From positions 1 to 25,202 of the IMG/VR virus record IMGVR_UViG_3300038619_000063: a stretch of DNA of 25,202 nt; one strand, 5' to 3'. This document shows positions 2,590 through 15,239 of this stretch, one piece after another. The notes under the pieces are model-generated. The model was not told where the DNA came from, did not search any database, and saw nothing but the letters and a program-made list of their open reading frames with translations. The stretch comes from a virus. A program made the position numbers and the translations under genes. How positions within the stretch are numbered: the stretch's first letter is position 1; every line of letters starts with the position of its first letter.

Positions 2590-3543
2590 TTAAATACCTG
2601 TTGAGCGTAAGTTTTGAATCCAGAGGTCATTGGTGATGCATTGCCCTTGGTAGAACGAGCAACCAGCAGTATGTCGTAACATACATGGGTCGTTGTTATA
2701 ACCAGGAGGCAGATAGATAAAGCGAGCTTTACCACCTGCTTGCCACACAACTTTGTAAGCTTCTTTAGCTGCTACGAAGCAGTTAGCAATGTCATTTCCA
2801 AGCAATGAAGCATTGGGAGAGACAGAACCTTGCTCTGAAGCAAAGAATCTCACGTTATTTGCTCCGCCGATCTCAACGCTTAGCGTTTGTGAGATATTCG
2901 GATATTGGAATTTCTTGATAAATCCACTCATATTATAGAGCACTGGAATCATGCGAGTTGTTAACATACAACCGTATGCATCGCCGATTGGTGTGGTACC
3001 AAATTTCAAATCAGCTTCTACGATGTTCGTGATGTACTCGCCGCTGTTGTTTTGCAGCACGGTAAATACGTCATCGACATCGGAAATATTCATCTCAGTA
3101 GGAATATCGCCGTTAGATCCGCCAGTGCAGTTGATAATAGAAGCAGAGCTTTCTAAGTTATCTCTCTGTAGCGCATCTTGGGTCTCACGGAGGGACTGTC
3201 CAAGTCGAGCTGCGGCAGAATTTAATACGGGATCTTCGTTAGTGATTGTGACCTGACGAGTCAATACGATATAAGTCGCATAGACACGTACACGGCAGTC
3301 CACATCAACTCTGTTAAGTTGTTGTGGTGGTGGGTTGTTTTGGCCATCGTCGAGAGGCACTTCAAACAGGTCAAGCCTGTCGTAACGTGACTGACGGTCG
3401 ATGAAGCCTTGATTGTCTGGCAATTCCACTGGTGTAGCAAACAACTGGTGAATTAAGTTGTGCTCTGGAGTTGACAGCAATTTTGCGTTGTACCGCTGTT
3501 GTATTTGCGGTGGCAACGATGCAATTGATACTGATCCTGACAT
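2590..3543 (-). CDS. Major capsid protein, N4-gp56-like
   Basis: 317 residues. The sequence has the features of the N4-gp56 family of HK97-fold coat proteins. There is an early LFATPVELPDNQG segment, then RQSRYDRLDLFEVPLDDG, followed by a domain with RVYATYIVLTRQVTITNEDPV. A long helix follows (AAARLGQSLRETQDALQRDNL). The end is aromatic and cysteine-containing. The length suits the family. The gene follows a coiled-coil scaffold-like gene by 17 bp, the usual scaffold-coat order. It should be the most highly expressed gene here. The family assignment is from recognised sequence pattern, and no other gene in the window competes for the coat role. Confidence 0.85.
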   Translation of the reverse strand: MSGSVSIASLPPQIQQRYNAKLLSTPEHNLIHQLFATPVELPDNQGFIDRQSRYDRLDLFEVPLDDGQNNPPPQQLNRVDVDCRVRVYATYIVLTRQVTITNEDPVLNSAAARLGQSLRETQDALQRDNLESSASIINCTGGSNGDIPTEMNISDVDDVFTVLQNNSGEYITNIVEADLKFGTTPIGDAYGCMLTTRMIPVLYNMSGFIKKFQYPNISQTLSVEIGGANNVRFFASEQGSVSPNASLLGNDIANCFVAAKEAYKVVWQAGGKARFIYLPPGYNNDPCMLRHTAGCSFYQGQCITNDLWIQNLRSTGI

Positions 3544-3560
3544 TTTTTATGTTCCTTGAC

Positions 3561-4325
3561 CTACTGGGTCATTTCAGGAACCGAACTGGCAAGTGCTGCA
3601 TATCCATGCATTTCACGGTAGAGGTCTTTCTTCATAGCATCAGTGAGTTTGAAAGCTTGGGCAATTGGCCGCTTATCGAATGCCATCGGAGACGTTACCG
3701 CCTTCTCTGACTTTTCAATAGCCTTGTCTAATTCCTTCTCTCTCCTACTCTCTTTTGCTGATTGTGTCAGCCCCATCGCTTTGATGTATTTGTAGCTTTG
3801 TACGCCGATTTTATAAGGATCTTTTGATTCCGCAATCGCCGCCGCCAATTCAGGTTCTTTTTCTTCAAGCATTGATAAAGTTTCGGGATTGACGACCTCG
3901 TTGAAATCTGAATATTGACGACTTAAGCGATCCATGAATTGATCTTGATCTCGCTTTTCAAGGGCTTTTTTAACCTCTTGTTTGACGAGATCCTCAGCGT
4001 TTTTGAGCACTTTCTGAGAATTCTTCTCAGCCAGTTTTTTCACCTTACCTAGGGGAATGAACTCTTCATCGCCGATTTTATCAAACTCATCGAGCTCTTG
4101 ACGCACAGGCTGCTGACTGGCAAGCTGGGCTTGCATTATCTGCATCTGATTATCTCGTAATTGTTTCAGCTCTCTTTCGAGTTCGGCATTCTTAAGACGC
4201 ATCGCCTTCAAGTGCTGGTTTGTCACTGGCTCTTGAACTTGACTTGCCTCTTTCACTTCATTGACTTGGGTTTCGACCGGAGGTGCTACCTCTTGTATTT
4301 CGCTATTTTGGTTTTGCTCAGTCAT
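3561..4325 (-). CDS. Scaffolding protein, probable
   Basis: 254 residues, almost entirely predicted helix and highly charged (E, K, Q, D). A low-complexity acidic N-terminus (1-40) leads into a coiled coil (about 40-75). A second long helix follows (about 95-135), and the C-terminal region holds the basic and hydrophobic segment expected to bind coat. No cysteines and no hydrophobic core segments are visible. AGAGAGGAAATTC precedes the ATG, a strong ribosome-binding site. Position immediately before the coat gene and composition are the standard signs of a procapsid scaffold. Sequence similarity among scaffolds is low, so the call rests on context. Confidence 0.75.
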   Translation of the reverse strand: MTEQNQNSEIQEVAPPVETQVNEVKEASQVQEPVTNQHLKAMRLKNAELERELKQLRDNQMQIMQAQLASQQPVRQELDEFDKIGDEEFIPLGKVKKLAEKNSQKVLKNAEDLVKQEVKKALEKRDQDQFMDRLSRQYSDFNEVVNPETLSMLEEKEPELAAAIAESKDPYKIGVQSYKYIKAMGLTQSAKESRREKELDKAIEKSEKAVTSPMAFDKRPIAQAFKLTDAMKKDLYREMHGYAALASSVPEMTQ

Positions 4326-5843: not shown

Positions 5844-6479
5844 TCAGCTATATACAGCCATGTAGAGATCTAGCATCTCTAAACATGCTTTTTTATCTGG
5901 ATGAAGCATTTCATGAACTCCGAGTCCTTCGGCAGCTGCATTTCTAAATGCCTTGCGGTTTCCAATAGTACAATCAAACGTCTCAATCTCGGTGAATTCT
6001 TTTAAGATTTCTTTTGCCTCTTGATTATCCTTTCCTGAAGCATCTGCTTGAGTAATGACTGCACAAATCTTTAGTTTTGAATTAAGACATTCCGACAAAA
6101 TTCCCTTGATAGGAACAAGTGTCCAGATGTCTATCGAACTTGGTTTAAAAGGAAGAATTAACTTATCTGCGACAGATAAGGCCGAACGCTGGGATGTTGT
6201 ATCTCTTCCACCTGTATCCACGATGATATCATCAAAGTCTTCTTGAAGGCGTTGAAGATTTGAATAAATAGCCTTTCCTGACATGCATACAGTCGAAAAG
6301 GTTCCCTTTAAAAGATCAGGTTCGCAAGTATCCCTTTGCTGCGACCAATCCCATGCACTTTTTTGCTCGTCTGCATCTACCAGTAAGATTTTCCTACCCA
6401 TAGTACGAAGAACGGCCAGATTGGTCGCTATCGTTGTTTTTCCGCTACCACCCTTGATACCACCGACTACAATAATCAT
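5844..6479 (-). CDS. parA: ParA/ParF-type partition ATPase
   Basis: 211 residues, about the length of ParF (Ib) ATPases. It starts directly with the deviant Walker A motif GGIKGGSGKTT (about 6-16), including the signature lysine. LLVDADEQKSAWDW (about 32-45) is the ParA A' region, and DDIIVDTGGRD (about 83-93) is Walker B. No N-terminal HTH domain is present, so autoregulation would fall to the RHH partner encoded 36 bp downstream. Such ATPases position plasmids or phage-plasmids on the nucleoid. MinD-like functions are an alternative, but no C-terminal amphipathic helix is evident. AGGAGAT gives a strong ribosome-binding site. Confidence 0.88.
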   Translation of the reverse strand: MIIVVGGIKGGSGKTTIATNLAVLRTMGRKILLVDADEQKSAWDWSQQRDTCEPDLLKGTFSTVCMSGKAIYSNLQRLQEDFDDIIVDTGGRDTTSQRSALSVADKLILPFKPSSIDIWTLVPIKGILSECLNSKLKICAVITQADASGKDNQEAKEILKEFTEIETFDCTIGNRKAFRNAAAEGLGVHEMLHPDKKACLEMLDLYMAVYS

Positions 6480-11108: not shown

Positions 11109-11951
11109 TCATCCGGCTCTGGACAGAGTAGGAAAGTAACTATCCCACCATCCCTTTGGCGCTGCTTTGGGTTGCTCCTGGACTTTGCTCTCAGCTGGCT
11201 GCTGCACAGGCTGTACGGGCTGCTCTTGGATATCAATGAAATTAAGATAGATGGGAGGCACAACTTTTTCTGTGTGATATGATACACTATTTCCCTTGCA
11301 AATAGCGTCGGCTTTCTCTTTCGTTGACTCGCCGAATTTCATGCCAATTGAAAAAGCGCAACCTTTATCGCTATTTCTAATATATGGAGAAATACCGAAC
11401 TCGAATTTGTTTTTGTGTGTATATGAAGCGGCGATGTTCAATCCCCATTTTTGAATCTCATGCTCATAGAAGGGATATAGACCAAATTTCACTTCATTTA
11501 TCGGATAGATATTGATTCCGAATTCGGATACTGGCGATATAAAATAGGATGCTAAACGGCTTGTTTTATCGGATGTGGTCGGTAAATAGACATTGTAGAA
11601 CACTTGAGTTTTTCCAAAGATAACTTCTACGCCAGGGCTAAGTTGATGCAGCATGATTGCCTCTTGCGATGTCATCGTGTAATAAAAGTTCGTGCCGATG
11701 GTGTATTCGCCCATGTTTCTACGAAACCCAAAGCCAATATCATTCTGAAGATATTTATATGCCATGGTATGCGTCAATTGGAATATGACTTTGTCGAGAT
11801 CCGAAGGGTCAAAGTGCGATTGATGATCTAGCTTGACATAGGACGATTCCCAATCGTAGGACTTAACTCCTGCGCTGAATTGCTGGAAGGATTCGTAGGA
11901 TGCAATCGGCAGAGTTAACGCTATTAGAGCACTGATTAGAGGCAGTTTCAT
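11109..11951 (-). CDS. Outer-membrane beta-barrel protein, inverse-autotransporter-like
   Basis: 280 residues from the ATG at 11951, chosen because CAGGAGATTCCC precedes it and a signal peptide follows (MKLPLISALIALTLPIAS, hydrophobic core 3-18). Residues about 25-215 alternate in beta-strand fashion. The order NDIGFGFRRNMGEY, then IGTNFYYTM, LSPGVEVIFGKTQVFYNVYLP and FGLYPFYEHEIQKWG matches the barrel of intimin/invasin-type inverse autotransporters. Those proteins carry Ig-like passengers after the barrel. Here only about 60 residues follow, rich in P and Q (EQPVQPVQQP), ending GWWDSYFPTLSRAG. It is a likely lysogenic-conversion or superinfection-blocking surface protein. The fold is strongly suggested, the role is inferred. 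Confidence 0.75.
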   Translation of the reverse strand: MKLPLISALIALTLPIASYESFQQFSAGVKSYDWESSYVKLDHQSHFDPSDLDKVIFQLTHTMAYKYLQNDIGFGFRRNMGEYTIGTNFYYTMTSQEAIMLHQLSPGVEVIFGKTQVFYNVYLPTTSDKTSRLASYFISPVSEFGINIYPINEVKFGLYPFYEHEIQKWGLNIAASYTHKNKFEFGISPYIRNSDKGCAFSIGMKFGESTKEKADAICKGNSVSYHTEKVVPPIYLNFIDIQEQPVQPVQQPAESKVQEQPKAAPKGWWDSYFPTLSRAG

Positions 11952-12017
11952 GGGAATCTCCTGTTTTTGTTGAGTTCTTAGACTCCCCATAACAGGTAAA
12001 TTTAATTAATTACAATA

Positions 12018-13059: not shown

Positions 13060-13273
13060 GTTGCTCCTTTATTGGTAGGTTAGGTAATGTCATCCAATGC
13101 GTAACTTCGAATCCATAATGATATTCAACATCACAGCAATCACATGAAATTTTCCATATAAATTCTTCGTAATGTTGATATCTAGTAGCCACATATATAC
13201 TTTGTCCATCAGAGACAAGAACAGGGCAACCAAATTCTGGTAATCCGTCTTTAACGCTGATCCATTCGTTCAT
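13040..13273 (-). CDS. DUF551-type protein
   Basis: 77 residues. MNEWISVKDGLPEFGCPVLV and VTHWMTLPNLP are the textbook ends of the DUF551 family, closer to the usual pattern than the copy at 12018-12251. A CDCCDVEYHYG patch in the middle could bind metal. GGGGATAAC precedes the ATG. The start overlaps the methyltransferase stop by ATGA, so the two are translationally coupled. Confidence 0.85.
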   Translation of the reverse strand: MNEWISVKDGLPEFGCPVLVSDGQSIYVATRYQHYEEFIWKISCDCCDVEYHYGFEVTHWMTLPNLPIKEQHDITAK

Positions 13274-14190
13274 GTTATCCCCATTAAGATTTTAAACGCT
13301 TCTTTCGCTTGCATAGGTACCACTGCATTGCCCAATCCTCTAAGACGGTCCACTCTTTGGGGTACCCCATCAGCCACTCGACCCACGTCGGGTTCAATTT
13401 CCCAGAACCGGCTGCATCCTGGAGTGTGAAATGATGGCCATTCCGCTTGTCCGGGTTCTTGTAGGCTCCCCGGGCATTCGCATCGGGCGTAGGCCACATC
13501 ACAACTTGCTCCAACGTCGGACTGTATCCCGGGCTCGAGTATCCTCCTGTCTTGTTTGCTCTCGGAGTCGGCCACATCTGAGGATAAGCCACCTGTTCGT
13601 TGAGTCTGCCGGCAGTCTTTCGATAAGATGTCCCTCCTCGTCTCATTACATAATCCAGAGCTTCGCCCTCCCTCACTGGAAGATGATCCATAGTGCTTGG
13701 CGTGAGCCAATAGGAACCAACGATCTCTTTTATGCCTCGCTCCAACGCTTGCAGCGGATATAACACACCATCGACAATCATACCCCATTTCGGTAATCGC
13801 TTGAACCACGGTGCTTCCTCCTCTAACAAGGATAGCTGGGACGTTTTCAAGGAATATGAACTTGGGGAGGATTTCTTTGGCCAAGCGATGGATCTCCCAA
13901 AATAAGCCGCTTCGCTCGCCAGCCAAGCCTTTTCCATGTCCTGCAACGCTGATATCCTGGCAGGGAAAGCCCCCCACGATAATATCAACTGTTCCTCGAA
14001 ACCCTCTTGCGTCGAGCGTTCTAACATCATCCCATATAGGGGCCGATCTAAGTGATAATTTAGACATTTGTGAGAGGAGTATTCCTTGACAATACTTGTC
14101 GATCTCACAGTAGGCGATAGGTCGCATCCAATCGCTAAGGGCAATGCTGAGTCCTCCGATTCCTGAAAAGAGGTCGAGTCCGTTGAGCAT
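13270..14190 (-). CDS. dcm: DNA (cytosine-5) methyltransferase
   Basis: 306 residues from the ATG at 14190, one base after the HNH stop (TAACATG). A GTG at 14205 would add five residues. All core motifs are present: DLFSGIGG (6-13, AdoMet), GGFPCQDIS (73-81, catalytic Cys77), ENV (115-117), RHKRDRWF (152-159) and GLGNAVVP (about 285-292). The enzyme should methylate cytosine C5 in a short site set by the low-complexity region between about 165 and 260. No partner restriction enzyme is obvious, so it is probably a protective orphan. The gene looks GC-richer than its neighbours and is overlaid by a second frame (13284-14207). Confidence 0.92.
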   Translation of the reverse strand: MLNGLDLFSGIGGLSIALSDWMRPIAYCEIDKYCQGILLSQMSKLSLRSAPIWDDVRTLDARGFRGTVDIIVGGFPCQDISVAGHGKGLAGERSGLFWEIHRLAKEILPKFIFLENVPAILVRGGSTVVQAITEMGYDCRWCVISAASVGARHKRDRWFLLAHAKHYGSSSSEGGRSSGLCNETRRDILSKDCRQTQRTGGLSSDVADSESKQDRRILEPGIQSDVGASCDVAYARCECPGSLQEPGQAEWPSFHTPGCSRFWEIEPDVGRVADGVPQRVDRLRGLGNAVVPMQAKEAFKILMGIT

Positions 14191-14207
14191 GTTAAGTATA
14201 TCCACAT
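13284..14207 (-). CDS. Overprinted phage protein inside the methyltransferase gene
   Basis: 307 residues in another frame of the same strand, covering nearly the whole methyltransferase. It is not a random frame. It has SLKTSQLSLLEEEAPWF...LPKWGMIVDG (about 119-147), WLTPSTMD (about 167), MWPTPRANKTGG (211), MWPTPDANARG (237) and LNPTWVEWLMGYPKEWT (271-287). I know this series (SxKTSQ...P.xGM..G...WPTP...LNPxWVEWLMGxPxGW) as a phage protein family found with or fused to Dcm-like enzymes. Its own function is unknown. Its ATG at 14207 overlaps the HNH end and has no clear ribosome-binding site, so translation would depend on coupling. Confidence 0.6.
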   Translation of the reverse strand: MWIYLTCSTDSTSFQESEDSALPLAIGCDLSPTVRSTSIVKEYSSHKCLNYHLDRPLYGMMLERSTQEGFEEQLILSWGAFPARISALQDMEKAWLASEAAYFGRSIAWPKKSSPSSYSLKTSQLSLLEEEAPWFKRLPKWGMIVDGVLYPLQALERGIKEIVGSYWLTPSTMDHLPVREGEALDYVMRRGGTSYRKTAGRLNEQVAYPQMWPTPRANKTGGYSSPGYSPTLEQVVMWPTPDANARGAYKNPDKRNGHHFTLQDAAGSGKLNPTWVEWLMGYPKEWTVLEDWAMQWYLCKRKKRLKS

Positions 14208-14674
14208 AATTTTAAGTTTTTTACCAATGTTTCAAGTTCATATAATGAAGCGTTATTTTTTAAGATGTTTGCTCGAGAAGAAATCACCCAAACATTATCT
14301 TTTGTATATCCCTTTTTATTATCTTTACGATCGAGGGAAGGAGAGTTGTGACGTATCCCAAATTCTTCACACGAAAGCTTAAGCTGAAGAAGTGGGCAAA
14401 TCTCTGGTATTTGAATATCTTCAATTGTAATAGCAAAATCCAAAGATTTTTTTTTCGCTCTTAACTTTGCAGCTTGCCACATTGAGTATTTTCTTCCCTT
14501 TTCTGTTTTGTACCACAAGTCACGATATTTCTTTCGTGTGCTTTTCCCCTTGTTGGAAAAACGATATTCATCTGATATTTTCTTATAGGAATCCGAAGTA
14601 TGATATTTCTTTCTAGTGGCTTTCCCATTTTCAGATGCATTGTATTTTTTTGATGATTCTATTGACCAATTCAT
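14192..14674 (-). CDS. HNH endonuclease with N-terminal basic repeats
   Basis: 160 residues. The C-terminal half fits a compact HNH-type fold: ICPLLQLKL (about 92-100), then a NSPSLDRKDNKKGYTKDNVWVIS segment (about 110-132) and SRANILKNNASLYELE. This is the DRxxNxxGYxxxN layout of phage HNH nucleases. The N-terminus carries three related words, ENGKATRKKY, NKGKSTRKKY and EKGRKYSMW, probably DNA-contacting repeats. Only one base separates its stop from the methyltransferase ATG. It may be a free-standing homing nuclease or act with the methyltransferase. The usual Cys pairs are absent, so only one metal site is likely. Confidence 0.75.
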   Translation of the reverse strand: MNWSIESSKKYNASENGKATRKKYHTSDSYKKISDEYRFSNKGKSTRKKYRDLWYKTEKGRKYSMWQAAKLRAKKKSLDFAITIEDIQIPEICPLLQLKLSCEEFGIRHNSPSLDRKDNKKGYTKDNVWVISSRANILKNNASLYELETLVKNLKLCGYT

Positions 14675-14715: not shown

Positions 14716-14916
14716 TCAACATACCTCTCCACCCATACATAGCCATTTTGTTACTATTTTCTCAACACTAAATGGAGCCTGAAATATATCAATCCATGAT
14801 ATCTCAGACTCAGGATACATGCAGGGAATTTGCACTTGAATACGCTTCTCCATTCGTCTAATATTTCTTATGCTTTTATGTTTCTCATGAATAAGCTTCA
14901 TCAATTCTTCGTTCAT
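14716..14916 (-). CDS. Small hypothetical protein beside the tRNA
   Basis: 66 residues from the ATG at 14916, which follows the tRNA's last base by two nucleotides. A longer in-frame opening runs back through the tRNA gene and is rejected. The N-terminus is a basic helix (EELMKLIHEKHKSIRNIRRM); the rest is mixed with two cysteines near the end. The GGGGC of the tRNA acceptor is the only ribosome-binding-like sequence. Low confidence that it is translated. Confidence 0.45.
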   Translation of the reverse strand: MNEELMKLIHEKHKSIRNIRRMEKRIQVQIPCMYPESEISWIDIFQAPFSVEKIVTKWLCMGGEVC

Positions 14917-14918
14917 AT

Positions 14919-14989
14919 CTGCCCCGTAAAGATTCGAACTCCAACTGCCAGAGCCAAATTCTGGCGTGCTACCATTACACCACAAGGCA
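14919..14989 (-). tRNA. tRNA-Gln (anticodon UUG)
   Basis: The 71-nt minus-strand RNA folds as a full cloverleaf. Acceptor TGCCTTG pairs with CGGGGCA (two G-U pairs). The D arm is GTG...CAC with the GG of the loop in TAATGGTAG. The anticodon stem is CCAGA/TCTGG around ATTTGGC, giving anticodon TTG. The T arm is TGGAG-TTCGAAT-CTTTA. Discriminator base is G, as expected for glutamine. CCA is not encoded. It reads CAA and CAG; the phage's portal and scaffold genes are glutamine-rich. Confidence 0.93.
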
Positions 14990-14990
14990 A

Positions 14991-15239
14991 TTAACATTTA
15001 GCATTTTCTTCTTTTGCGATATCCTGAAGCAATGCACCGATGCAGATATCCCATTCTTTAAATGGTTTTGTAAAAGAATGCGAAGGGATACTTAAAAAAT
15101 AGGATTGCAATTTATTTTTATGCTTGGTCGAAATATACCTATATTCCCCATCAAATCGATCTTTAAGAAAACATTCTCTCCATGTGATTACTTCTTTATG
15201 CAATCTCTCAATTGTGGTTTCAAGTTCTTTAGTATCCAT
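14991..15239 (-). CDS. Small protein of unknown function downstream of terminase
   Basis: 82 residues, mostly helical and charged (TKELETTIERLHKEVITWREC, then LQSYFLSIPSHSFTKPF). The start lies within the last codons of the large terminase gene (11-bp overlap), so it should be translated by coupling. No conserved motif is evident. It lies directly before the tRNA on the same strand. Confidence 0.6.
   Translation of the reverse strand: MDTKELETTIERLHKEVITWRECFLKDRFDGEYRYISTKHKNKLQSYFLSIPSHSFTKPFKEWDICIGALLQDIAKEENAKC

Follow-up and report, generated by a model that had tools for sequence, protein, structure and literature searches.

The window, which is the whole 25,202-nucleotide stretch analysed here, is a 25.2-kb IMG/VR virus record (IMGVR_UViG_3300038619_000063) with P22-like portal, terminase, and head genes. 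Two long open reading frames were found at one methyltransferase locus on its minus strand, as the original prediction had stated, and about 900 bp are common to both. The m5C methyltransferase frame, termed alpha, occupies positions 13270..14190 (-) and encodes 306 residues from the ATG at 14190, with motifs I-VIII and X. An alternative GTG start (14205..13270, -) would give 311 residues, and the ATG at 14190 is the more likely start. The second protein, termed beta, runs from the ATG at 14207 to 13284 (-) and is a putative recognition/motif IX subunit of 307 residues. Beta is in the +1 frame relative to alpha. Therefore, the second codon position of beta is the wobble base of alpha. In the alpha frame, all on the minus strand, are motif I LDLFSGIGG (14152..14178), motif IV GGFPCQDIS with the catalytic cysteine (13948..13974), motif VI LENVP (13837..13851), motif VIII RHKRDR (13720..13737), and motif X LGNAVV (13318..13335). 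GGFPCQ of motif IV is invariant in A3. The +1 reading of the motif VI stretch is part of the beta segment SLKTSQLSL (13827-13853). Beta then carries, also on the minus strand, module 1 (WLTPSTMDHLPVREGEALDY...VAYPQM, 13575..13709), module 2 (WPTPRANKTGGYSSPGYSPTLEQVVM, 13497..13574), module 3 (WPTPDANARGAYKNPDKRNGHHFTLQDAAGSG, 13401..13496), and a motif IX-like segment, KLNPTWVEWLMGYPKEW (13350..13400), to be compared with RKLHPRECARVMGYPDSY of M.HhaI. All of the beta motifs quoted in the original prediction were located in the second frame. Its statement that the methyltransferase frame keeps every catalytic motif did not hold, because alpha has motifs I, IV, VI, VIII, and X while the motif IX-like segment and the recognition region are in the other frame.

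Alpha is a C5-cytosine DNA methyltransferase by its SAM-binding motif I, the PCQ of motif IV, the ENV of motif VI, and the RxR of motif VIII. It matches PF00145 (7.3e-38) at residues 8-175 only. In the AF2 model, the pLDDT is about 95 for residues 1-165 and is high again (about 95) for residues 290-306 at the motif X end. Residues 174-241 have a pLDDT below 50 and are without secondary structure. With this model, Foldseek retrieved M.HaeIII and M.HhaI (the latter at E 5.6e-15), the aligned part being the catalytic half, about 168 columns. A monomeric enzyme has its target-recognition domain (TRD) and motif IX in one chain. In alpha, the Pfam match stops before such a region, the following residues are disordered, and frame 0 is not conserved there. 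The part of alpha between motifs VIII and X is thus a stop-free disordered linker replacing the recognition domain. Since motif X lies in alpha in the window and in most relatives, alpha has to remain open across the recognition region, which serves it as a linker.

Raw similarity in the +1 frame was rejected as proof of a second protein because alpha homology alone raises both alternative frames. Therefore, synonymous shuffles, which preserve the protein and its codon usage, were used instead, together with control genes and codon-position counts. For the alpha gene of the window, 12.4 stops are expected on average in the +1 frame, and two were observed. Both are at the far 3' end, one being the stop of beta itself and the other lying beyond it. 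Related viral loci were retrieved by the methyltransferase alone (80 loci) or by the second frame (12 loci), and a relative of beta is encoded in every one of them. Stops were counted in the core of 87 related viral genes, taken to begin at codon 66 and to end 32 codons short of the terminus. The +1 frame contained 4 stops against 361 expected, and the +2 frame of the same genes contained 886 against 880. The 317 flanking ORFs of the same loci served as a control and gave 3465 stops against 3452 expected, an observed/expected ratio of 1.00. Over motifs IV-VIII, the +1 stops were 4 against 194, 5 against 173, and 2 against 213 expected in three viral sets. Bacterial genome contigs gave 68 genes with 0 stops against 131, and 56 genes of streptococcal prophages, chosen by the methyltransferase alone, gave 0 against 218. 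Sets picked by beta are biased to an open beta frame, so more weight was given to those picked by the methyltransferase, which do not share this bias. No depletion of +1 stops was found in E. coli dcm, two restriction-modification methyltransferases, and two plasmid methyltransferases; four of these genes together have 15 stops against 15.3 expected. Openness of the +1 frame is therefore not a property of the C5 fold. The beta frame is selected for and is not accidental, and the two frames would be a dual-coding pair. Two observations had been named in advance as arguing against double coding. Neither was seen, since the second frame stays open in the homologues and sites synonymous in the methyltransferase frame show reduced substitution. 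The same two-frame arrangement is present in hundreds of phage and prophage genes, of which the annotation usually shows one frame.

Substitution counts by codon position indicated that the dominant frame switches along the gene. The alpha frame is dominant over motifs I-VIII and X, and the beta frame in the target-recognition stretch. In the family of the window, frame 0 prevails at codons 65-150 and again in the 28 codons at the end, which contain motif X. In the middle region, the +1 frame is better conserved, with an identity of 0.48 against 0.38 for frame 0 in the closer pairs. Within beta, codons 65-110 exhibit only openness with no +1-specific residue conservation, and residue-level conservation is present at codons 110-150. 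The recognition-region modules were compared in 624 pairs of equal length. Their identity is 0.75 in the +1 frame, 0.38 in frame 0, and 0.40 in the +2 frame, and the differences fall on +1 codon positions 1, 2, and 3 in proportions of.23,.18, and.54. A gene translated in the +1 frame would ordinarily show this pattern. The module region of 181 genes has 13 stops in frame 0 against 663 expected, and 892 in the third frame against 856. The reciprocal stop depletion indicates that each frame is held open across the domain of the other. Therefore, the proposal that both frames are under selection over about 900 bp stands for each frame, though not as equal strength throughout, since the dominance is segmental.

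No convincing match to beta was found in Pfam, NCBIfam, or the PDB. Alone, it gave a poor AF2 model (pLDDT 59, pTM 0.28), and a Foldseek search with this low-confidence model returned no fold match. Beta of the window does match phrog_1008 (1.8e-18), and this family matched all of the 25 beta proteins tested, at best with 1.6e-74. An extension of the phrog_1008 match over motif X in alpha was dropped as not significant (E 0.39). The homologues of beta that were found all sit with a methyltransferase gene. In 161 of 168 loci the overlap is clear and in the same register, and no standalone beta gene was found among the 168. The beta proteins carry one to six (W/F/L)PTP modules, three of them in the window, and recurrent module types were found on very different backbones. 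For example, the loci L035 and L238 have the module WPTPTVCGNYNRKGASATSGDGLATAVRM in identical form, and upstream of it their frame-0 backbones share 18%. Such a distribution is what an exchange of recognition cassettes would look like, and a link of the modules to DNA specificity may be suspected from the sequences.

The beta segment KLNPTWVEWLMGYP resembles RKLHPRECARVMGYP of M.HhaI. In a profile comparison with KLTPRECWRLQGFP, it aligned in register, weakly, over 14 columns with 43% identity (P 0.028). By profile comparison, the match to motif IX is suggestive, and the case rests on the order of modules, IX, and X and on frame continuity. Ten of the 13 frame-0 stops in the module region fall in two loci, L119 and L256. 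There, frame 0 stops after motif VIII without a motif X, which is instead reached by the +1 frame (NRAKRLKAIGNGQVP, ERVNRLKCLGNAVVP) once it has passed the LNPxWVEWLMG segment. Four further loci of this kind were found (L367, L393, L400, and L418), in which alpha has motifs I-VIII and beta has the modules, then IX, then X. The overlap of beta with alpha, in the +1 frame, still amounts to 326-527 nt in all six of these relatives. The probable role of beta is that of a subunit that supplies recognition and motif IX to an m5C methyltransferase made of two polypeptides.

Beta seems to be more than a carrier of these elements. In streptococcal prophage methyltransferases, the recognition repeats and motif IX are in frame 0. 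These genes also keep a +1 ORF over codons 56-190, with 9 stops against 457, and the +1 frame is better conserved than frame 0 at codons 160-188. Since this ORF is open despite a TRD and motif IX in frame 0, the N-terminal extension of beta has a value beyond carrying them. The idea that beta exists solely for this purpose is weakened by the streptococcal class. In loci L270-L349, the selected +1 ORF at methyltransferase codons 56-190 ends in ...SDILEEKVPDQFFLS..., which by eye is like the in-frame AQLLDPMVEAKYILTP of E. coli Dcm. As a separate observation, an insertion of about 400-500 nt lies between the motif I and motif IV regions of the methyltransferase gene in L004 (~3282-3695) and L013 (~3195-3692), and it may be of a homing type.

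The context of the start codons supports translation of both predicted products. Among full-length loci of the MSW type, most have the alpha NTG 4 nt upstream of the beta ATG, with one Shine-Dalgarno-like stretch (such as GTGAATGAGTTGG) in front of both. The distance between these two codons is usually 7 nt in the type that is closer to the window. In some loci, only the beta ATG occupies the position behind the Shine-Dalgarno-like stretch, and AAGGAG/AAAGGAG precedes an internal beta ATG in L367 and L400. In the window itself, the beta ATG at 14207 is 17 nt upstream of the alpha ATG, inside the 3' end of an endonuclease ORF, and no strong Shine-Dalgarno sequence was found for it. This upstream ORF (14192..14674, -) is endonuclease VII/HNH-like (phrog_3322 1.2e-32, phrog_1035 7.7e-16). 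Its TAA (14194-14192) ends 1 nt before the alpha ATG (TAACATG), a junction which suggests coupled translation of the endonuclease ORF and alpha. The ORF, which also overlaps the methyltransferase start, probably encodes a free-standing homing-type endonuclease. Just upstream of it lies a tRNA-Gln (anticodon ttg, 14918-14990, -), which is overlapped by an ORF called at 14716-14997 that may be mis-started.

The GC content of the locus is 0.51-0.53, against 0.34-0.38 in its surroundings. The original prediction had noted this difference correctly, and its explanation by transfer as a unit was not borne out, because the GC peak is general to the architecture. The gene is richer in GC than its flanks in 76 of 87 loci, and the gene-minus-flank difference is 0.138 where the flanks have less than 36% GC and 0.010 where they have more than 50%. 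Avoiding AT-rich stop codons in two frames would raise GC, so transfer need not be invoked. Two other ORFs of the window deserve mention. A 293-residue ORF at 11109-11990 (-) weakly resembles an inverse autotransporter beta-domain (E 0.0035, under the Pfam cut-off), which is unusual for a phage. A match to a ParA-like partition protein (phrog_164, 2.3e-37) at 5844-6479 (-) in this P22-like contig could mean a plasmid-like lysogenic state.

Two-polypeptide m5C methyltransferases as such are already known, with M.EcoHK31I and M.AquI as examples. The beta polypeptide of M.EcoHK31I is encoded within alpha in another reading frame. According to PMC3404938, which cites Lee et al. 1995, M.EcoHK31I has motifs I-VIII and X on the large polypeptide and motif IX on a smaller second one, and its predicted TRD is placed there on the large polypeptide. 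The large subunit of M.AquI has motifs I-VIII, and its small subunit has the distal variable region and motifs IX-X (PMC3404938). Alpha of the window likewise carries motifs I-VIII and X on the large chain. In contrast to M.EcoHK31I, the recognition region is here conserved in the beta frame and disordered in alpha. Also, M.EcoHK31I is a restriction-modification enzyme for YGGCCR, whereas the locus of the window belongs to a phage and has three modules and nearly coinciding start codons. Judging from its sequence, the locus would work like the M.EcoHK31I type, as a variant with the recognition region in beta. The six relatives described above resemble M.AquI, with I-VIII on alpha and IX-X on beta. 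They differ from it in that their beta overlaps alpha in the +1 frame, and the window differs from it by having motif X in alpha.

Existing annotation mostly gives one frame. The family phrog_1008 is named 'DNA methyltransferase', and the second frame is not recognised there as a partner subunit. Only alpha is annotated in phage S9-5. The beta frame is annotated as hypothetical in Vibrio phage NVP1236O_59 and in phPA-G XAI65183.1, and both frames are annotated without comment in Paenibacillus larvae phage Tadhana (TADHANA_54 and TADHANA_55). In the ShiLan element (PMC11855218), too, a phage methylase gene has a further protein encoded out of its frame. However, this protein is an inserted HNH homing endonuclease of scattered occurrence, whereas beta is an integral and conserved part of the locus. 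No published account of a phage-wide alpha/beta overlap was found in the open-access literature. New here are its spread across phages, the recognition-like WPTP modules that the overlapping frame carries in interchangeable form, and the near coincidence of the start codons.

The selection for openness of both frames, the regional frame dominance, and the entry of the beta frame into motif X in relatives were computed directly. On this basis, we propose that one stretch of DNA yields a two-subunit DNA cytosine-C5 methyltransferase with a catalytic alpha and a beta for recognition and motif IX, with a probability of roughly 0.87. Alpha, read in frame 0, would fold as the catalytic large domain, to which motifs I-VIII and X belong. 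The stretch that joins VIII to X would be no more than an unstructured linker, since that DNA is used to encode beta. In the +1 frame, beta would start a few nucleotides from alpha, its N-terminal extension overlapping the catalytic motifs, and would contribute the motif IX segment in addition to three recognition-like WPTP modules. If both proteins are made and bind each other, they may assemble into one enzyme whose modules read the DNA and which marks phage DNA, probably against host restriction.

Could the open +1 frame be a by-product of methyltransferase conservation, codon bias, or nucleotide constraint, with no second protein at all? Part of the raw +1 similarity does follow from alpha homology and constrained third positions, and the +2 frame also exceeds the shuffle null. 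However, the shuffles hold protein and codon usage constant, the control genes show no deviation, and the restriction-modification and chromosomal C5 methyltransferases keep their stops. The depletion is specific to the +1 frame, and the substitutions in the modules concentrate at the +1 wobble position. The probability of such a by-product is close to negligible. Programmed frameshifting into the +1 frame would give an alpha-beta fusion instead of a separate beta, and it is attractive in that the +1 frame has the parts missing from alpha. A shift near motif VIII, however, would not need the +1 frame to be open from as early as codon 1 or about codon 56, nor a beta ATG of its own near the alpha start or, in L367 and L400, internally behind a Shine-Dalgarno sequence. 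Frameshifting is very improbable for these reasons.

A real beta might also have a role apart from methylation, for example in antirestriction or regulation, and not be an enzyme subunit. This agrees with the N-terminal extension being open even where frame 0 owns the TRD and motif IX, and with the lack of a characterised protein or fold matching beta. It is unlikely, because the beta frame enters motif X in six relatives whose alpha ends after motif VIII, alpha is without an ordered recognition domain, and all of the beta homologues found accompany a methyltransferase gene. Of the two roles originally suggested for beta, a partner of the methylase is the best supported, and nothing was found in support of a separate antirestriction factor.

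The two-subunit enzyme may be the rule among phages. We tentatively suggest, at somewhat less than even odds, that most phage m5C methyltransferases have two subunits with the specificity subunit overprinted in the +1 frame, that the WPTP modules are interchangeable cassettes shuffled by phages, and that the N-terminal extension is a separate overprinted domain with its own conserved function. If the two-subunit reading is true, a large share of the phage cytosine methyltransferases annotated as one protein are two. Expressing the annotated frame alone, or assigning specificity from it, would then fail or mislead. The alpha/beta overlap is an unusually long and widespread same-strand overlap among DNA phages. 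Its natural replicates number in the hundreds, modules recur among them, and motif X lies in alpha in some and in beta in others, so that the constraints of overprinting and dual coding would become directly testable in standard laboratory phages and E. coli.
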